The position numbers and the translations under genes were made by a program. The notes under the pieces are model-generated. The model was not told the DNA's origin. It ran no database searches and saw nothing but the letters and a program-made list of their open reading frames with translations. A stretch of DNA of 64,000 nucleotides from Candidatus Poribacteria bacterium (GTDB taxonomy: Bacteria > Poribacteria > WGA-4E > WGA-3G). Shown piece by piece: positions 21,464 to 58,758 of this stretch (within the stretch, counting starts at the first letter, position 1; every line of letters begins with the position of its first letter). The stretch spans positions 62,001 through 126,000 of the forward strand of contig JAJDWA010000058.1 of the NCBI GenBank assembly GCA_022825825.1, in the 5' to 3' direction.

Positions 21464-22135
21464 ATGACAAAACCGCCCCGTCTTGATTATTGTCAATATC
21501 TATTGACAATAATCAACTGGACGCTAACTCATTTTGCGGATCACTGTGAGCAGTTCAGTCATGATCAAATGAATCGTTATCTTGCAAGGGATCATTGCCA
21601 CCCCGCTATATATGGGAAAGTGTCAAACCCCACTTGGAGCAAACATCTAATGGCTATATTATCTTTGATGATACGGTTTTAGATAAAAGGCACGCACAAA
21701 AGATAGCACTTACTCAAAGACAATATAGTGGAAACGCTCACACCACGATAAATGGCATCGGTGTTGTCACCTGTGTATATGTCAATCCGGAGTTAGACCG
21801 GTATTGGGTCATTGATTTTCGTATCTACGATAAGCAAGGTGATGGTAAATCTAAGTTAGACCCTGTTCGTGATATGCTTGATGTTTTCGTGAACTCCCGC
21901 CCTGTTGCTTTTAGCACAGTGTTGATGGATAGTTGGTATGCCACCAAAGTGCTTATGTTATTCATTGAAAATCTTAGCAAAAAGTATTATTGTCCACTTA
22001 AAAGGAACAGACTTGTTGATGATTCTAACGGCACACCCCCTTATCAACGCGTTGATAGTTTAGAGTGGAGCGACACAGAACAGCAATCGAGCAAACGGGT
22101 GAAACTCAACAAGTTCCCGAAAAATCATAATTTGC
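21464..22135 (+). pseudogene. Frameshifted N-terminal two thirds of an IS701-like DDE transposase
   Basis: Translation starts at ATG 21464 behind GGAGG and reads MTKPPRLDYCQYLL through RYLARDH. A missing base near 21593 moves the frame, and the second frame continues PPRYIWESVKPH...GYIIFDDTVLDKR (first catalytic Asp), WVIDFRIYD and TVLMDSWYA (second catalytic region), then VDSLEWS and KLNKFPKNHNL. This domain order is that of transposases widespread in cyanobacteria. After about residue 220 the homologous frame stops and IS982 sequence takes over, so the third catalytic residue is absent. Confidence 0.7.
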
Positions 22136-22466
22136 CGATAAAGGGTATATCAACAAAAATTTGCGGGAGAGACTCCAAGAAGACGGTGTAGCACTCATGG
22201 ACAAGGTGCGTCCGAATATGAAACCTGAACCTATTTCTGATACTGACGCAGCCCTTCTAAAAAAACGGATGCTCATTGAGTCGGTGAATAAAGAACTCAA
22301 AAGTCAGACAGAGGGACAACACACACGCCATAGAAGTTGTGTTAACTTTCAAGTAAACACAGTTGCTGCCTTGATCGCTTATACCTGTCTGAAGAAGAAA
22401 CCTTCACTCAAACATAAAGAACTTCAAGAAAAAGATTGTGAGTTGCCAATGATATGTAACTTCTAA
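22134..22466 (+). pseudogene. C-terminal fragment of an IS982-family transposase
   Basis: One frame, entered without a start codon just after a TAA at 22128-22130, reads ADKGYINKNLRERLQEDG, then DKVRPNMKPEP, LLKKRMLIESVNKELKS, TRHRSCVNFQVNTVAALIAY and KKKPSL. This is the conserved tail of IS982 transposases: R-x-N-M-K, L-L-x-K-R-x-x-I-E-S-V-N, H-x-R-H-R-S, N-F, A-Y. About two thirds of the protein is missing upstream, replaced by the IS701-like sequence in another frame. Confidence 0.75.
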
Positions 22467-22743: not shown

Positions 22744-24297
22744 ATGAGGACTTTATCAGACAAAATTACGCTTAATCTTGACGGTGACGCAAAAGTGTCC
22801 ATCAAAGCCTTCATTGCACCGATTGAATACACCCAATACAATTTTCATGTAGAGTGGGATGCATTGGCGAATCTGCAAGCTGCTGAACCGGAAAAGCAAT
22901 ATTCCGCGTCTATTTTTCGAGTATTCCTTCCATCGGAACCGGTTTCAGTCCGTGAATGCTGGGAAATTGAGGAAGATGTTCTGGAATTACTGAGGCAGCT
23001 TCACCCGAATCCGAGATTGGATTTGCACATCAATAACGGGGATTCTCTTGGCTTGTGGGCATGTTTGCGTGCCTACAACGATGAAGTCGCTGACATTATG
23101 TTTCGCATTCACGCAGAATTTGCCATAGAAAGTGGTAGGTTCACACCTTCCCAATTTGCTGGTCATCTCGTCATTGACCGAATCAAAGAAGAGATCATAT
23201 TTTTTCAGATGCATGTACCTAATGGGACGCTGAACTTTGATGTTTATTGGGATACAGTGGGATCCGATATCGGGTATTGTCCTCAAATGGAACTCCGCAC
23301 AAGCACACTACCTGATGATGCCGAATTCACCGCGTCCATCACAGAAGAAAAAGCTGAACACGCACTGATGTCGTGTTTCTACAAGTTCCAGCAAATCAAT
23401 TGGGTTTCTCTGGAGGAAGCGTTGGAAATAGCACCTGCACAGCAGAAACCGATTCATGCCGTCTCCTTAGATGGACCGCTCTTTGACGAATCTTGCTGAG
23501 CAAGTGGCAAAGGTTTGAGGGCAGGTGTCCTCTCTAAAGACGCAATTATCGAATTCTTGAATGAACATTTTATCAACACATGGGTACCCAACTCTGAATT
23601 AGGACGAACCCCAAGTTTGCGAGAACCGATTGCCAAAAAACGCGAGCGCGAAGGCGATCCGTTTGATACAACGCATCCCTTGGCACAAGCCATTATTAAG
23701 GGACAGAAGACCGGATCAAAAAAAGGTTCGCCAGTGGATAGTTACATCATATCACCCGATTTTGAACTGATAGGTAAAAAACAAGTTCGTGAGCTTGAGG
23801 TCAATGCGGGACCTGGAGTCCTCTCTCCAATGGCATATTACCAAATATTTCTCAAGGATGCCTTGGCAGGAAAAGAGCCTGGATTGGGAAACATTGTTCT
23901 CACCCCTGAGCATCATGTAGAGGAAGTGCTGGACGTTTTTCGTACACCGACTGTGGGGTATTTAGATTACACTGTTGTCGTGATTGATGTCACATCTTTT
24001 GAAAACGGCGGGACACTCACCATTGATATTAAAATCGGTAGGGAAAATGGTGAAGGTGAATTTTACCTGTTTGATGAGGATGGCGAACTTTCCATAGATG
24101 AAGAAGAACCGAAAGATGCACTAGCTTCGACTTGGGGAGAACCGGGTGATGAAACGCAGATCATACATCAATTTGACCGAGGCCAAGTTTTCAGGTTAGG
24201 TGCTTCAGGATATTGGGACGAAGGAGAAGTGTGTATCAACGCTTTTGTTGCAAAAATTTCTGTAGAGGAAAATCAAAATGAAAATTTCACAAGATAA
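22744..24297 (+). CDS. Putative selenoprotein 1 of a tandem array (in-frame UGA read as Sec252)
   Basis: Read through the TGA at 23497-23499, the gene gives 517 residues. Residues 1-230 form an unrecognised domain with C72 (ECW), C107 (WACLRAY) and C179 (GYCPQMEL), conserved in all four paralogues. From about 220 the sequence is thioredoxin-like: a helix with EEALEIAPAQQKPIHAVSLDG, the vicinal pair C251-U252 at the start of a helix (SGKGLRAGVLS), then FINTW and DSYIISPDFELIG strands. The last 100 residues are a beta-rich domain ending INAFVAKISV. TAGAGGAG precedes the ATG. A bSECIS-like hairpin follows the UGA. It has no signal peptide, so it is probably cytoplasmic. Alternative: two separate genes, but the second half would need a TTG start lying in the hairpin region without a ribosome site. 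Confidence 0.8.
23517..23532 (+). promoter_or_regulatory. bSECIS-like hairpin of selenoprotein 1
   Basis: GAGGGC (23517-23522), loop AGGT, GTCCTC (23527-23532): six pairs including one G-U. The loop starts 23 bases after the UGA at 23497-23499, within the 16-37 range described for bacterial SECIS elements, and has the G-rich loop they need. The word AGGT also occurs in the loop of the E. coli fdhF element. Confidence 0.75.
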
Positions 24298-25837
24298 AAT
24301 CACACTTAATCTTAGTAATGATACAAAAGTAACCGTCAAAGGTTTCATCGCACCGATTGAGAACATGAGTCCTAACTTTCATGAAGAATGGGACGCATTG
24401 GCGAATATGCGTGTTTACAAGCCAGAAAAGGAATATGATACGTCGGTATTCCATGCCTTTCTTCCTAACGAGCCTGTTGCTATCGGTGAATGTTGGCATG
24501 TAAAAGAAACTGGTGCATTGGAGCTACTACGACAACTAAATCCTAATCCCAATCTGGATATGCATATTGATATTGGAGATTCCTCTGGATTGTGGGCATG
24601 CCTAATTGCATACAATGATCAACATGCTCATATCGTGTTTCGTATCCACGCAGAATTTGCACTAACAGATGGATGGTTTACACCTTCCCACTTTGCAGGT
24701 GACCTATTTATTCACCAGTCTAAAGAGGATGTCGTATTCTTCCGAATGCACGTTCCAGAAGGCAAATGGTTTGATGTTAACTGGAAAAAAGATAAAGACG
24801 ATCCCAATTCTTTCTATAGCACAGCTGGTGGTATTTGTCCGAAAATTGAACTCTACGGTGGGACGCGAGAGGTCCTGAAAGATACAGAGTACACAGCGTG
24901 TATTACACGGAAAAAAGCGCAACATATACTTATACAGAAATTCTACAAATCACAGCGAATTAAATGGCTACCATTTGATGAAGCTTATGAAATAGCACAA
25001 GCGCAGCAGAAGCCGATCCATGCCATTTCAATTGACGGTCCACTTGACGACGAGGCGTGCTGAGGAAGCGGAAAAAACTTGAGGGCAGTTGTCCTCTCCG
25101 ATGAACGAATTATCAATTTTTTGAACGAAAATTTTGTCAATACGTGGATACGTAATGTTGAGTTGAGACACTTGCGCGATACAATGGGGTATCAGCGAAT
25201 GTTTCCCTTGGCGCGGACAATTATCAGTAATAAGTGGCGTAGAGGTCCAGTAGACACTTGGATAATATCTCCTGAACTTGAGGCTATAGGACATGTAGCA
25301 GTTAACGAATACCTTGGAAACAACCGCCGTGAAGATGGCACTTTGGAAAGTGAGAATTATCTACTGTTTCTCGCGGATTCCTTAGCAGGCAAACTTCCTG
25401 GATTAGGAAATATTGTTCTCACTCCTGATCAACCTTCACAAACAGTATTAGATGTTTTTCGCACGCCAGAATATGGACATCAGGATTACACCGTTGTCGT
25501 GATTGATACGACTACGTTTGAAAACGGTGGAAAACTCACTATTGATATGGAATTGGGAAACGATAAAGCGTCCAGTTCATTCTTTCTACTTGACGCAGCG
25601 CATAAACTTACCTTTGATGCTGCTAATAAACGTCCAGATGCTACCATGTTTGATAGTGCATACGACGTAGGTTGGTATGATCCAGGCGAAATTGGTCAGA
25701 TGACACATCTTTTTAAAAGAGGGCAAATTCACAAATTGGTAGGAATGGGATGGGCATCTAACGAAAAGGGAAGTATCAACGCTTTTCGCGCAAGAATTTC
25801 TGTAGAGGAAAATCAAAATGAAAAAGACACCAAATAA
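24278..25837 (+). CDS. Putative selenoprotein 2 of the tandem array (Sec262)
   Basis: This 519-residue paralogue of the preceding gene carries its in-frame TGA at 25061-25063, again directly after a Cys codon (DEACU, then GSGKNLRAVVLS). The ATG lies 20 bases inside the end of gene 1, behind TAGAGGAAAATCAAA, so the ribosome site is encoded by the VEENQN tail of the previous protein and translation is coupled. The three N-domain cysteines (ECW, WACL, GGICPK) are kept. The thioredoxin-like half is shorter than in the others (MGYQRMFPLARTI instead of a charged insertion). The C-terminal domain ends INAFRARISV. No signal peptide. Confidence 0.8.
25081..25096 (+). promoter_or_regulatory. bSECIS-like hairpin of selenoprotein 2
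   Basis: GAGGGC, loop AGTT, GTCCTC at 25081-25096. The stem is identical to copy 1, the loop differs by one base (AGTT), and the distance from the UGA is the same 23 bases. Confidence 0.7.
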
Positions 25838-27428
25838 AATCACGCTTAATCTTGACGGTGATGCAGAAGTCAACGCCAAAGGCTGCATCGCACCGATTGA
25901 ATACACGCAATATAACTTCCACGTGGAGTGGGACGAATTGGCAAACTTTCGGGTTGCTGAGCCAGAGAAACAGTATTCTGCATCGGTTTTTCAAGCATTT
26001 CTCCCATCAGTACCTGTCTCGGTAGGTGAATGCTGGCAAGTTGATGAAGAAATCACATTAACTCTGCTAAAACAACTCCATGAAAATCCACGACTGAGAC
26101 TGGAAGATGATGACGAAAATTATCGAGGAATCAGGGCATGTTTGCGAGCTTTCAATGATCAATTTGCTGAAATCGTGTTCCGTATTCATGCAGAATTTAT
26201 CATGAAGAATGGCAAGTTGACACTATCACAATTTGCTGGACATTTAGTTATTGACCGAATCCATAAAAAAATTGTGTCCTTCAAAATGTCCGTTCCGCCA
26301 ACAACACTGAACTTTGATGCCGGATGGAAGCAAGAAGATGGGAACTATTTTGCGGAGATCGGTTATTGTCCGCGACTTGAGTTATCTGTTGGAATATACC
26401 CGACTGATGTTGAATTCACCACATCTATAACCCAGGAAGAAGCAGAAAGTAAACTAATTTCGCATTACTACAAATTTCATCAAATAAATTGGGTATCTTT
26501 AATGGAAGCGTATGAACTGGCACCTATCCAGCAAAAACCGATACATGCTGTCTCTTTAGATGGACCGCTTTTTGATGAGTCGTGCTGAGGCACCGGCAGA
26601 ATCTTGAGGACAGGTGTCCTCTCTAAAGAAAACATTATTGATTATTTGAACGAAAACTTTATCAATACATGGATTGAAAATGCAGAATTGGGACGGACAG
26701 GTAGTTTGCAAGCCCCTATTGCCAAAAGACGTAAACGGGAGGGAAAAACCTTCAATACAAACCATGCCTTAGCAAGAACTATAATGAAAGGATGGGTAAA
26801 AGGTTCACCGGTAGACTGTTTCGTTATCTCGCATGATTTCGATTTGATGGGAAGTGTCGACTTCAATGAATTCCTTGACAACCTGCAACGACCTGAAGAT
26901 GAACCCGCAACATACATGCAATTTCTCAAGGATTCCTTAGAAGGAAAACGTCCTGGCTTGGGAGACATTACTCTTACACCTGAACAACCTTCGCAAGAGG
27001 TGGTAGACACTATTCACACTCCGAAAATGGCACATCAGGACTACACAGTTGTCGGCATCAACACCACTGCATTTCCAGATGGTGGCACACTTATTGTTGA
27101 TATCAAAGTCGGTAGAGATGATGCGATCGGATTATTTTTTCTGCTGGATGGAAATAAAAAATTGCCAACTGAGAAAGTGCCAGAAGGCATTGATCCCGCA
27201 GCATGGCACAGTCAGGAAAGTGACGAGTATGAAAAGGCACTCGACGCACTTACCAAAGTCTGGGGAGTATTCCCCGGTCAAACTGGACAAATGACATACG
27301 AATTCGATCGGGATCAACGTTTTAAGTTATGTGCGACTGGAGACCAATGGGGTGGCGTAGGCGGCATAAACGCATTTGTTGCAAAAATCTCTGTAGAGGA
27401 AAATCAAAATGAAAAAGATACCAAATAA
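25818..27428 (+). CDS. Putative selenoprotein 3 of the tandem array (Sec257)
   Basis: At 536 residues this is the longest copy. The TGA at 26586-26588 follows FDESC and continues GTGRILRTGVLSKENIIDYLNE. It starts 20 bases inside gene 2 with the same coupled ribosome site. The thioredoxin-like half has LGRTGSLQAPIAKRRKREG, matching copy 1, and PVDCFVISHDFDLMG. The C-terminal domain carries an extra acidic stretch (HSQESDEYEKALDAL) absent from the other copies. All three N-domain cysteines are conserved. It is close to copy 1 in the N-terminal half (EYTQYNFHVEWD shared). Confidence 0.8.
26606..26621 (+). promoter_or_regulatory. bSECIS-like hairpin of selenoprotein 3
   Basis: GAGGAC, loop AGGT, GTCCTC at 26606-26621. 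The G-U pair of the other copies is here A-U, a compensatory-type change that keeps six pairs. It sits 23 bases after the UGA at 26586-26588. Confidence 0.75.
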
Positions 27429-29001
27429 AATCACGCTTAATTTCGACGGTGACACAGAGGTGTTAGTCAAAGGTTTTATCGCACCGATTGAGCATACCCT
27501 CTCCCATTTTCATATAGCGTGGGATGCATTGGTGAATCTGCGGGTTGCTAAACCGGAAAAGGATTATCTAACATCAGTTTTTCAGTCTTTTCTGCCAACA
27601 GAATCGGTTTCGGTGGGTGAATGCTGGGAAATTGAAGAGGGTGTTCTGGAATTATTGAAACAACTACATCCGAATCCAAGATTAGATTTGGACACCAATA
27701 ATGGGGATTCTTTTGGTTTGTGGGCTTGTCTGCGTGCTTACAGTGATAGATTTGCCGACATTGTGTTTCGGATTCATGCGGAGTTCAAGTTGGAAGATGG
27801 GTGGTTTACGCCTTCACAGTTTAAGGGAAATCTCATCATTGATCAAATTGAGCAGAGAATTGCTTTCTTCAAAATGTACGTGCCCGAAGGCACGGTGAAC
27901 TTTGATGTTAATTGGGATGAGGACAAAAACGTTGACTATACTATTACGGATGCCGGTTTCTGCTCCCAAATGGAACTTCAGGCGGGAATAGAAAATGTAA
28001 CACAAAATATTGATTTCACAGAGGCAATCACCCAAGAAGAAGCAGAACGCGCTCTGAGTTTGTGTTTCTACAAGTCAGAGCAAATTAACTGGACATCGCC
28101 ATATCAAGCAGTAGAAATGGCAGAGGAACAGGTTAAGCTAATTCATATTATTTCAATAGACGGGCCATTGGCTAATGAGGCTTGCTGAGGGAGCGGCAAA
28201 GACTTGAGGGCAGGTGTCCTCTCTGAAAACCGAATTATAGAATTCTTGAATGGAAATTTTATCAACATCTGGGTTTCCAATGTAGAATTAGAACGAACTC
28301 CCAGAAAACAAGCATATATGGTGCAAAGACGAAAGGAAATATCCAATACGTTTGACAAAACGCATCCCTTAGCAAAAGCCATTATGGAAGGGTGGCAAGA
28401 GCATTCACCTGTGGATTGCTTGGTTATTTCTCCTGAATTTGATGTGATGGGAAAACTTCCATTTAATGATTTCTTTGGTGACTGCACACGAAGGGGTATC
28501 ACAGAAGAGGAAGGTTATCTTACATTTCTGAACGATTCCTTAGATGCAAAGTTCCCTGGGTTTGGTGAAGATACCTCAGAGCCGCTATTGACTGGTTCAA
28601 ACGTTGTCCTTAATGGTGAACAGCCTGAGCAAGAGGTATTGCACATTCTTCGCGCGCCAAAGTACGGCGACCAAGACTACAATGTCATTACAATAGATAC
28701 CACAGCGTTTAAAAATGGCGGCACGCTTCTAATTGATATTCGGATGGGGAGTGCTAAATCTGGTGGGTCGTTTGACCTGTTTGATGGCGAAGCCGAACTG
28801 CCTACAAAAGGTATTCCAACTGATGCAGTTGCCTCTGTATGGGATATTCCTTCAGGGCAGAGCGGAATAATACGATACCAATTTGACAAAGGTAAGACCC
28901 TTAAATTGGGGGCTACTGGGACTTGGTTCAGTGGAAAAGGGAATATCAATGCTTTTCAAGCTAAAATTTCTGTAGTACCAGCAAAAAAGAATGAAAAATA
29001 A
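27409..29001 (+). CDS. Putative selenoprotein 4 of the tandem array (Sec260)
   Basis: This 530-residue paralogue has its TGA at 28186-28188 after ANEAC, continuing GSGKDLRAGVLSENRIIEFLNG. It starts 20 bases inside gene 3. The N-domain keeps ECW, WACLRAY and GFCSQ. The thioredoxin-like half has FINIWVSNVELE and PVDCLVISPEFDVMG, and a longer loop before NVVLNGEQP. The C-terminus differs from the others (KISVVPAKKNEK) because no further copy follows, so the coupling sequence is gone. The WD40 gene starts 15 bases downstream and is probably in the same operon. Confidence 0.8.
28206..28221 (+). promoter_or_regulatory. bSECIS-like hairpin of selenoprotein 4
   Basis: GAGGGC, loop AGGT, GTCCTC at 28206-28221, identical to copy 1 in stem and loop and again 23 bases after the UGA (28186-28188), although the bases between UGA and stem differ. 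Confidence 0.75.
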
Positions 29002-57639: not shown

Positions 57640-58758
57640 CTACAACTCAAGTAGAATCTCCTTTAATCTTTTTGCAATAATTTCTACTTCTCCCGGCATT
57701 AAGGTCTGTCCGTTTATGAGGACACCGTTCGCACCTGCGCCAGCAATATCTATCGCAGGTTCACCTGTTTGTAGTTGATGGAGAATTTCATCGCGCGTCC
57801 TACCGAGTTGTTCTGCGTCAAATCGGATTTCGGTGCGTGGCATCGGTTGCCCCGCTTCAGATGGAAAGCTGCGATGTACACTAACACCTTGGATGTCCTT
57901 AAACACATCTGTGTAATAGGTAACTTGGTCTTCATAGGATTGCATTAATTCATCGTGGTCTTGATTCAGGTACCACTCCACCGCTGCCAGTAATCCTACC
58001 ATCTCCTCTTTGCCGACCTTCATACCTCTCCCGATGAAGGGATGCGGTGGTCCATTAAATGCAATAGCATCAATTAACGATTTTTTGCCGACAATCAGTC
58101 CACTACTTTGTGGACCACACAACCCTTTTCCACCGCTAAACATCGCCAAGTCTGCCCCCATCTCTGTGAAACGCCATAGGTTTTCTGGTGGAGGCAACTG
58201 TGCCGCGGCATCAACAATTAAGGGAATACCGTGCTTTTTAGCAATTTCAATACCTTTTTGATACGGCACCCATAAATGTTCTCTGCTGGGGTTTGCAAAG
58301 TAAAAGATTGCAGCGGTCTTATCGGTGATAGCATTTTCAAGTTCGTCAGGTGTTGTGCCGTTTTCGTCTCCTATCTCCACAAATGTGACACCGACCTGCC
58401 GCACAGCAAAATCGTATCCTACTCTGCCGTGGCGATGCACGATGACTTCGCTTTTCATGGAGTTGTCAAGACGGGGTAATTTGGCACGTTTAGTAGCATC
58501 CAGTCCGGTGATACAGGCTGCGGTGCTAAGCGTTAAAGCAGCTGCAGCACCATTGGAGACGTAGGCTGCTTCGTTATGGGTGAGTTTCGCTAATTCTTCG
58601 CCGACGCGTTTTTGAAGTTCTATGATATCTACAAAATGCTTTGAAGCTTCCGCCATTGCGTCAATGACTTCAGATGGCATAATGGAGCCACCGAGCCGTG
58701 TCAAAGTTGCATTGCCGTTGATAACTGTACGGATACCTAAGCGTTTGTAGATTGACAT
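57640..58758 (-). CDS. SelA-fold PLP-dependent enzyme (DgaE/selenocysteine-synthase-like)
   Basis: The 372-residue protein belongs to the SelA/DgaE branch of fold-type I PLP enzymes: TVINGNATLTRLGGS, YVSNGAAAALTLSTAA, LIVDAAAQLPP (aspartate to pyridine N), and the PLP lysine in MFSGGKGLCGPQSSG. True SelA is about 460 residues with an extra N-terminal domain and a tRNA-binding region, both absent, so I favour a lyase or aldolase (as in D-glucosaminate or hydroxyamino-acid breakdown). The presence of probable selenoproteins 30 kb away invites checking, but does not prove a link. It lies eight bases after the ABC gene. Confidence 0.8.
   Translation of the reverse strand: MSIYKRLGIRTVINGNATLTRLGGSIMPSEVIDAMAEASKHFVDIIELQKRVGEELAKLTHNEAAYVSNGAAAALTLSTAACITGLDATKRAKLPRLDNSMKSEVIVHRHGRVGYDFAVRQVGVTFVEIGDENGTTPDELENAITDKTAAIFYFANPSREHLWVPYQKGIEIAKKHGIPLIVDAAAQLPPPENLWRFTEMGADLAMFSGGKGLCGPQSSGLIVGKKSLIDAIAFNGPPHPFIGRGMKVGKEEMVGLLAAVEWYLNQDHDELMQSYEDQVTYYTDVFKDIQGVSVHRSFPSEAGQPMPRTEIRFDAEQLGRTRDEILHQLQTGEPAIDIAGAGANGVLINGQTLMPGEVEIIAKRLKEILLEL

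Follow-up and report, generated by a model that had tools for sequence, protein, structure and literature searches.

The stretch of DNA considered here, termed the window, comprises 64,000 nt of a Candidatus Poribacteria bacterium genome (GenBank assembly GCA_022825825.1, contig JAJDWA010000058.1, positions 62,001 to 126,000 of the forward strand). Under the bacterial genetic code, positions 22744-29001 of its plus strand hold eight consecutive long open reading frames (ORFs). When UGA is read as a sense codon, the same region resolves into four ORFs of 517, 519, 536 and 530 codons in array order, each with one in-frame UGA. We describe these ORFs as a tandem array of four putative selenoprotein genes in which UGA would be recoded as selenocysteine (Sec, U in protein motifs).

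Organization of the tandem array

Gene 1 (22744..24297, +) would encode a protein of 517 aa with Sec252 in the motif SCUASGK, gene 2 (24278..25837, +) one of 519 aa with Sec262 in ACUGSGK, gene 3 (25818..27428, +) one of 536 aa with Sec257 in SCUGTGR, and gene 4 (27409..29001, +) one of 530 aa with Sec260 in ACUGSGK. The four UGA codons (23497..23499, 25061..25063, 26586..26588 and 28186..28188, all +) fall in a single alignment column, and each directly follows the Cys codon TGC in a Ser-Cys or Ala-Cys pair, as a preliminary description of the locus, which recognized four tandem units with one in-frame UGA after a Cys codon, had stated. That description put the frame downstream of the UGA at 258-279 codons; the frame indeed continues open, with 265, 257, 279 and 270 sense codons in genes 1-4, so that the lower figure becomes 257. 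All four genes end in TAA, adjacent genes overlap by 20 bp, and each ATG is preceded by AGAGGA(A/G)AAT. Identity among the paralogues is 51-65% on the 5' side of the UGA and 45-52% on the 3' side. Elsewhere in the window, 33 ORFs reach 250 aa or more and 6 of them terminate in UGA; the genetic code has therefore not been reassigned, as was also initially proposed. Taken as sequence evidence, the observations collected here make it very probable that each of the four ORF pairs is one intact selenoprotein gene, overlapping its neighbour, with UGA recoded as Sec, and the Sec reading of the window UGAs is strongly supported.

A conserved hairpin downstream of the UGA

In all four window genes, a hairpin resembling a bacterial selenocysteine insertion sequence (bSECIS) begins 17 nt 3' of the UGA and spans +21 to +36. 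It lies on the plus strand at 23517..23532 in gene 1 (GAGGGC-AGGU-GUCCUC, 6 bp, -8.9 kcal/mol), 25081..25096 in gene 2 (GAGGGC-AGUU-GUCCUC, -8.9 kcal/mol), 26606..26621 in gene 3 (GAGGAC-AGGU-GUCCUC, -9.5 kcal/mol) and 28206..28221 in gene 4 (GAGGGC-AGGU-GUCCUC, -8.9 kcal/mol). The limits set for bSECIS elements in one published figure legend are a loop of 3-9 nt, a stem of 4-16 bp, a G among the first two loop bases, a spacing of 16-37 nt and a minimum free energy (MFE) of -7.5 or lower (PMC13188914, Fig. 2 legend). Judged by that legend, the four window sites all qualify, with a loop of 4 nt, a stem of 6 bp, G as the second loop base and a spacing of 23 nt.

To place these elements in a wider context, homologous sites were drawn from the window and from loci L019, L020 and L024-L100, omitting matches with a domain expectation value (E) above 1e-4; the 126 sites represent 101 distinct 75-nt fragments, and six rows were set aside (two with the UGA but too short, four cut by the end of the locus). 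A separate homologue listing of 58 rows contained one false row, which was dropped. The Cys-UGA pair is present at all 101 distinct sites, and this constancy means that neither chance nor decay can account for the UGA, in line with the original argument that the same break in several copies is not random mutation. A perfect 6-bp stem is found at 96 of the 101 sites when a loop of 4 or 6 nt is allowed; synonymous resampling of the same fragments (n = 200, using window-gene codon frequencies) yielded a mean of 4.36 perfect stems and a maximum of 10. A stem of at least 5 bp that also respects the limits on loop G and spacing is present at 98 of the 101 sites. The loop reads AGGU at 58 sites, AGUU at 33 and otherwise at 10, and the mean number of pairs, 5.56 in register, drops to 2.7-4.9 once the 3' arm is shifted by 1-3 nt. 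The Arg codon within the stem is AGR at 101/101 sites, compared with 27 of 83 Arg codons across the window genes, a count that takes in their own four stem sites. Of the 101 sites, 82 were read with a loop of 4 nt; their fourth pair is GC, AU or GU and their fifth GU, GC or AU, four sites showing a U-C mismatch. A structure-pair count on 24 sequences gave 98.6% paired cells, and 2 of 500 shuffles attained its covariation score.

The hairpin also distinguishes the presumed Sec codons from ordinary stops in the same family. Among 64 family genes with readable ends, 24 end in UGA and served as a control: a 48-nt MFE of -7.5 or lower accompanies 101/101 Sec-UGAs vs 3/24 terminal UGAs, and a stem of at least 6 bp obeying the loop-G rule accompanies 97/101 vs 3/24. 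Additionally, a shorter paralogue in the window genome (L020:1258-2439, -, on G000:C69), of about 390 aa and lacking the C-terminal part, carries the same Cys-UGA motif, followed by a hairpin of 7 bp with the loop GGUC.

Continuity of the reading frame and selection

The eight ORFs of a standard ORF listing could also be taken at face value, with UGA a true stop and the second halves made as separate proteins by re-initiation at TTG. This arrangement is highly improbable. The Leu codon that would serve as the alternative start is TTG at only 50 of the 101 sites, CTG at 47 and another codon at four, and the window TTG codons 3' of the UGAs have no AGAGGA upstream. The preliminary description had likewise noted the missing ribosome sites; it had further placed these TTG codons inside the hairpin, which goes too far, as the TTG at +19 to +21 touches the first hairpin base only. 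The codons between the UGA and the TTG are moreover maintained as protein-coding sequence: the residues Gly/Ala-Ser/Thr-Gly-Lys are kept with synonymous changes, Gly at +3 being present at 101/101 sites and Lys at +4 at 98/101. A break at the UGA would fall inside the predicted thioredoxin fold, separating the first strand from the helix after it, and among the 101 distinct sites there is no sign of homologues starting at the second half, a pattern regarded from the outset as one that would speak against Sec.

Purifying selection is evident on both sides of the UGA. In six comparisons with relatives (four for gene 1, two for gene 4), the ratio of nonsynonymous to synonymous substitution rates (dN/dS) is 0.16-0.28 upstream and 0.11-0.22 downstream, and both the sequence and these ratios place the window UGAs within frames that continue beyond them. 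These values, together with the occurrence of the UGA at 101 distinct sites from many assemblies, argue strongly against the view that the units are decayed pseudogenes or products of assembly error, which is the least probable of the explanations considered. Decay does occur in the family, for example in a relative whose copy is cut by TAA (L025:1493-2641, 383 aa) and in an L121 copy split over two frames.

Selenocysteine machinery in the genome and phylum

The machinery that Sec insertion calls for, proposed at the outset as the first thing to look for, is complete in the window genome (G000), which encodes SelA (E 1.8e-183), SelB (E 4.6e-105), SelD (E 4.4e-111) and a tRNA-Sec(UCA). The tRNA-Sec gene has the anticodon TCA, scores 78.7 bits (cut-off 47) and lies 34 nt from selB, selA exceeds its cut-off on contig C75, and selD itself contains an in-frame UGA. 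Together, the hairpin, the machinery and the dN/dS values support the recoding of UGA as Sec that was first suggested from the sequence.

A suppressor tRNA or leaky read-through could conceivably place Trp, or some other standard amino acid, at the UGA, since the frame stays open under any sense reading. We judge this very unlikely, because UGA terminates 6/33 other long window ORFs and 24/64 family genes with readable ends, the full Sec machinery is present, and, of four aligned thioredoxin-like proteins in the genome, three carry Cys opposite the UGA and one carries a UGA of its own. In the copies read, the UGA position holds neither Trp nor Arg, either of which had been named early on as evidence against Sec; the two full-length copies without UGA have Gly there.

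If Sec recoding holds, SelB and Sec-tRNA(UCA) would recognize the 6-bp, AG(G/U)U-loop hairpin 17 nt 3' of the UGA, leading to insertion of Sec and to products of 517-536 aa. Under selenium shortage the UGA would act as a stop, leaving a fragment of about 250 aa.

Several observations weigh against Sec recoding. With respect to the hairpin, 5 of the 101 sites fall short of 6 pairs; only one pair is changed on both sides among the 24 sequences, no more than shuffles give; and the predicted 48-nt MFE folds of genes 3 and 4 differ from the hairpin, the 23-nt stretch alone folding into it. A scan of the window against Rfam at gathering scores returned no matches, with the Rfam coverage of such bacterial elements left unchecked. 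In the phylum, sampled as 84 Poribacteria genomes with tRNA-Sec counted at E 1e-9 or better and under stricter filters, tRNA-Sec is found in 72 genomes. Seven of the 64 genomes bearing the thioredoxin-like domain of the family have no tRNA-Sec match; selB exceeds its cut-off in four of them, and the other three, 73-83% complete, have no selB above it. There is no clear enrichment with the family, tRNA-Sec being present in 57/64 genomes with the domain vs 15/20 without it, and as most domain-less genomes also have the tRNA, co-occurrence alone is weak evidence. Finally, Gly, in 2 of 110 matches from 10 genomes, is the sole replacement encountered within the family, and a Cys form was not encountered there.

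Three further features of the Sec system were encountered. A SelA-like pyridoxal phosphate enzyme paralogue, distinct from the C75 selA, is encoded within the window (57640-58758, -; PF03841, E 7.8e-14). An ORF adjoining selD (L049:2579-3562, -) stays open across a UGA close to its N-terminus if that codon is read as Sec and not otherwise, and its true start more likely lies 3' of that UGA. Two genomes have two tRNA-Sec matches each (G011:C41 and G011:C76; G049:C225 and G049:C127), both members of the G049 pair being at contig ends.

Domain architecture and predicted active site

The Cys-Sec pair of gene 1 lies in a predicted thioredoxin-like domain of the DsbH/DUF255 type (23383..23781, +), and the corresponding domains of genes 2, 3 and 4 are at 24947-25297, 26472-26858 and 28072-28458 (+). 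AlphaFold2 models, built with Cys replacing Sec, reached a mean predicted local distance difference test (pLDDT) score of 79.5 and a predicted template modelling (pTM) score of 0.67 for the whole protein, and a pLDDT of 84.7 and a pTM of 0.79 for the domain alone. The best Foldseek matches of the domain were Thioredox_DsbH (7tkv), DsbH (2ju5) and 3ira, with E of 1.3e-4 to 8e-4 and template modelling scores, normalized by query, of 0.56-0.61. Searches with the full-length model returned mostly beta-rich proteins and were not used for function. The domain would be embedded between an N-terminal and a C-terminal beta-rich part; the latter, predicted to form mostly beta strands, is also found by itself in further proteins encoded by the genome (L021, L022).

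An hhalign comparison with four thioredoxin-like proteins of the window genome (probability 96.7, 67 columns) aligns Sec with the first Cys/Sec of CxxC. The position of the second Cys (+3) is Gly, and an invariant Cys precedes Sec at -1, giving the motif CUxxG. Because the comparison profile consists of four rows, namely L108 and L109 (PF03190 matches, CxxC), L111 (DsbD-like by eye, CxxC) and L110 (UGWC), the register depends on the hhalign alignment together with the distance to the conserved Ser/Thr that comes next. The residue at the Sec position is Cys in L108, L109 and L111 and UGA in L110. Cys homologues, which the preliminary description had expected to be informative, are thus found among these three distant thioredoxin-like proteins and not within the family. 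The L110 gene (L110:1405-2523, G000:C67) is itself a selenoprotein candidate, with thioredoxin-like and tetratricopeptide repeat parts, the motif DSUGWC and a hydrophobic N-terminus.

The window proteins show no hydrophobic N-terminal stretch by eye, which suggests cytosolic enzymes, and by their predicted fold and motif they probably represent a family of cytosolic thiol/selenol redox enzymes with a vicinal Cys-Sec pair. In such a mechanism, Sec would act as nucleophile at the site of the first Cys of CxxC, with the invariant Cys at -1 as its likely partner, and the catalytic cycle would pass through a vicinal Cys-Sec selenenylsulfide that is reduced by cellular thiols or thioredoxin. The chemistry could be of the thiol-disulfide or peroxide type, and the paralogues probably differ in partner or substrate.

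Sec might instead be inserted for a different purpose, the Cys-Sec pair serving in the binding or transfer of a metal or metalloid. The replacement of the second CxxC Cys by Gly is in keeping with this idea, as are several families with a CU motif (SaoL, HgcA, MbdU) that bear mercury- or metal-linked names in a published compilation (PMC13188914, table 1). However, the predicted fold and the position of Sec match thioredoxin oxidoreductases of the DsbH/DsbD type, and we regard a metal role as unlikely, if far less so than the alternatives to recoding. Gene context is neutral between a metal and a redox role.

Distribution and evolutionary history

The thioredoxin-like domain of the family was matched in 64 of the 84 Poribacteria genomes, with 411 matches in total; some of these are pieces of one gene, and among the matches listed all have one TGA. 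In 10 copy-rich or near-complete genomes, the 110 domain matches comprise 107 with one UGA, two full-length without it and one fragment that stops before the UGA position. Copy numbers reach 15 in each of three genomes: G053, G070 and G080, the last having 16 matches of which two are pieces of one split gene. Eight more genomes, chosen for greater distance or weaker scores, gave 18 matches, all with the UGA. All 25 related loci from the genome collection are labelled Candidatus or uncultured Poribacteria, and the phage collection gave no match. The array, initially thought to have no known parallel, is not the only one, since relatives have arrays too, among them one of eight units in 15 kb (L120), all with the UGA and one of them short.

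In a tree of 28 members, the partner of each window gene comes from a different genome and none is an array neighbour, which suggests that the paralogues are older than the species compared; tandem paralogues that diverged before these species appear the best account of the sequences. Gene 1 is paired with its relative in L025, to which it is 85% identical, gene 2 with L034:9573, gene 3 with L039:143 (support 90/70 only) and gene 4 with L032:11183.

The two copies without UGA, L118 near 6563 (+) and L119 near 7058 (-), belong to two genomes and lie outside the 101-site set. In both, Gly replaces Sec and the hairpin arms persist, with the loop AACU lacking the loop G. They may represent a natural loss of recoding; the near-identity of the two stretches points to a single evolutionary event, so that the case is suggestive only.

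Clustering of the genes that recur beside the arrays showed seven loci to be largely alike in their surroundings and did not lead to a partner gene; one recurrent neighbour, in five loci, resembles by eye the ATPase of an ATP-binding cassette transporter. Directly upstream of the window array, two overlapping frames at 21595-22466 (+) are remnants of a DDE transposase (PF13546, PF13612).

Relationship to known selenoproteins and significance

None of the four window proteins has a match over the cut-off in Pfam, and none was found in NCBIfam either, even at E up to 1, for two of the four and the L020 paralogue; weak matches below the cut-off, such as those to DBI_PRT, zf-DBF, ACT_5 and Calmod_bind_C, were taken as chance. 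A PDB sequence search with the domain profile gave no matches. PF03190 (Thioredox_DsbH) does not match the gene 1 domain and scores 13.9 bits against a cut-off of 27 with the L020 paralogue, so that the family is considered a relative by predicted fold and is not filed as a member. It shares its predicted thioredoxin-like fold with DsbH/DUF255 (PF03190) and DsbD C-terminal domains; however, these have CxxC in place of CUxxG, and the domain is here embedded between two other parts. Sec-containing thioredoxin-like UxxC proteins (e.g. L110, UGWC) likewise have Sec at the first redox position, whereas the present family has Gly at +3 and the invariant Cys at -1. In animal thioredoxin reductase the GCUG motif lies in a flexible C-terminal tail; an adjacent Cys-Sec pair is thus common to both, while the fold is unrelated and the pair lies here in the active-site loop of a thioredoxin domain.

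Table 1 of a recent compilation, which by its authors' count covers 119 selenoprotein families or subfamilies, shows no entry with the CUxxG motif and this architecture, and the CU-motif bacterial selenoproteins SaoL, HgcA, KCU-star, MbdU and SaoB share the CU dipeptide and differ in domains as listed there (PMC13188914). Literature searches on Poribacteria and sponge-symbiont selenoproteins gave nothing on such arrays, which does not establish their absence in print. Sec decoding itself would be of the ordinary bacterial kind; the family is apparently undescribed, and its CUxxG active site and tandem expansion are unusual. SelA and SelB are stated to co-occur in most sponge symbiont bins and to be missing from most closely related references (PMC5649159).

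Collectively, these features likely define an undescribed selenoprotein family that forms tandem arrays in Poribacteria (the longest read having eight units), reaches up to 15 copies per genome and has a DsbH-type thioredoxin domain in which CxxC has given way to a vicinal Cys-Sec pair (CUxxG), an unusual thioredoxin active-site arrangement. Standard gene calling splits each family gene into two ORFs, so that selenium proteins are read as half-genes. A conserved hairpin in each of the tandem paralogues makes them natural replicates for defining bSECIS requirements. For the biology of these sponge-associated bacteria, the family is an abundant candidate client, and may be the main one, of the Sec machinery, its paralogues perhaps acting as a set of partner-specific selenol redox enzymes.

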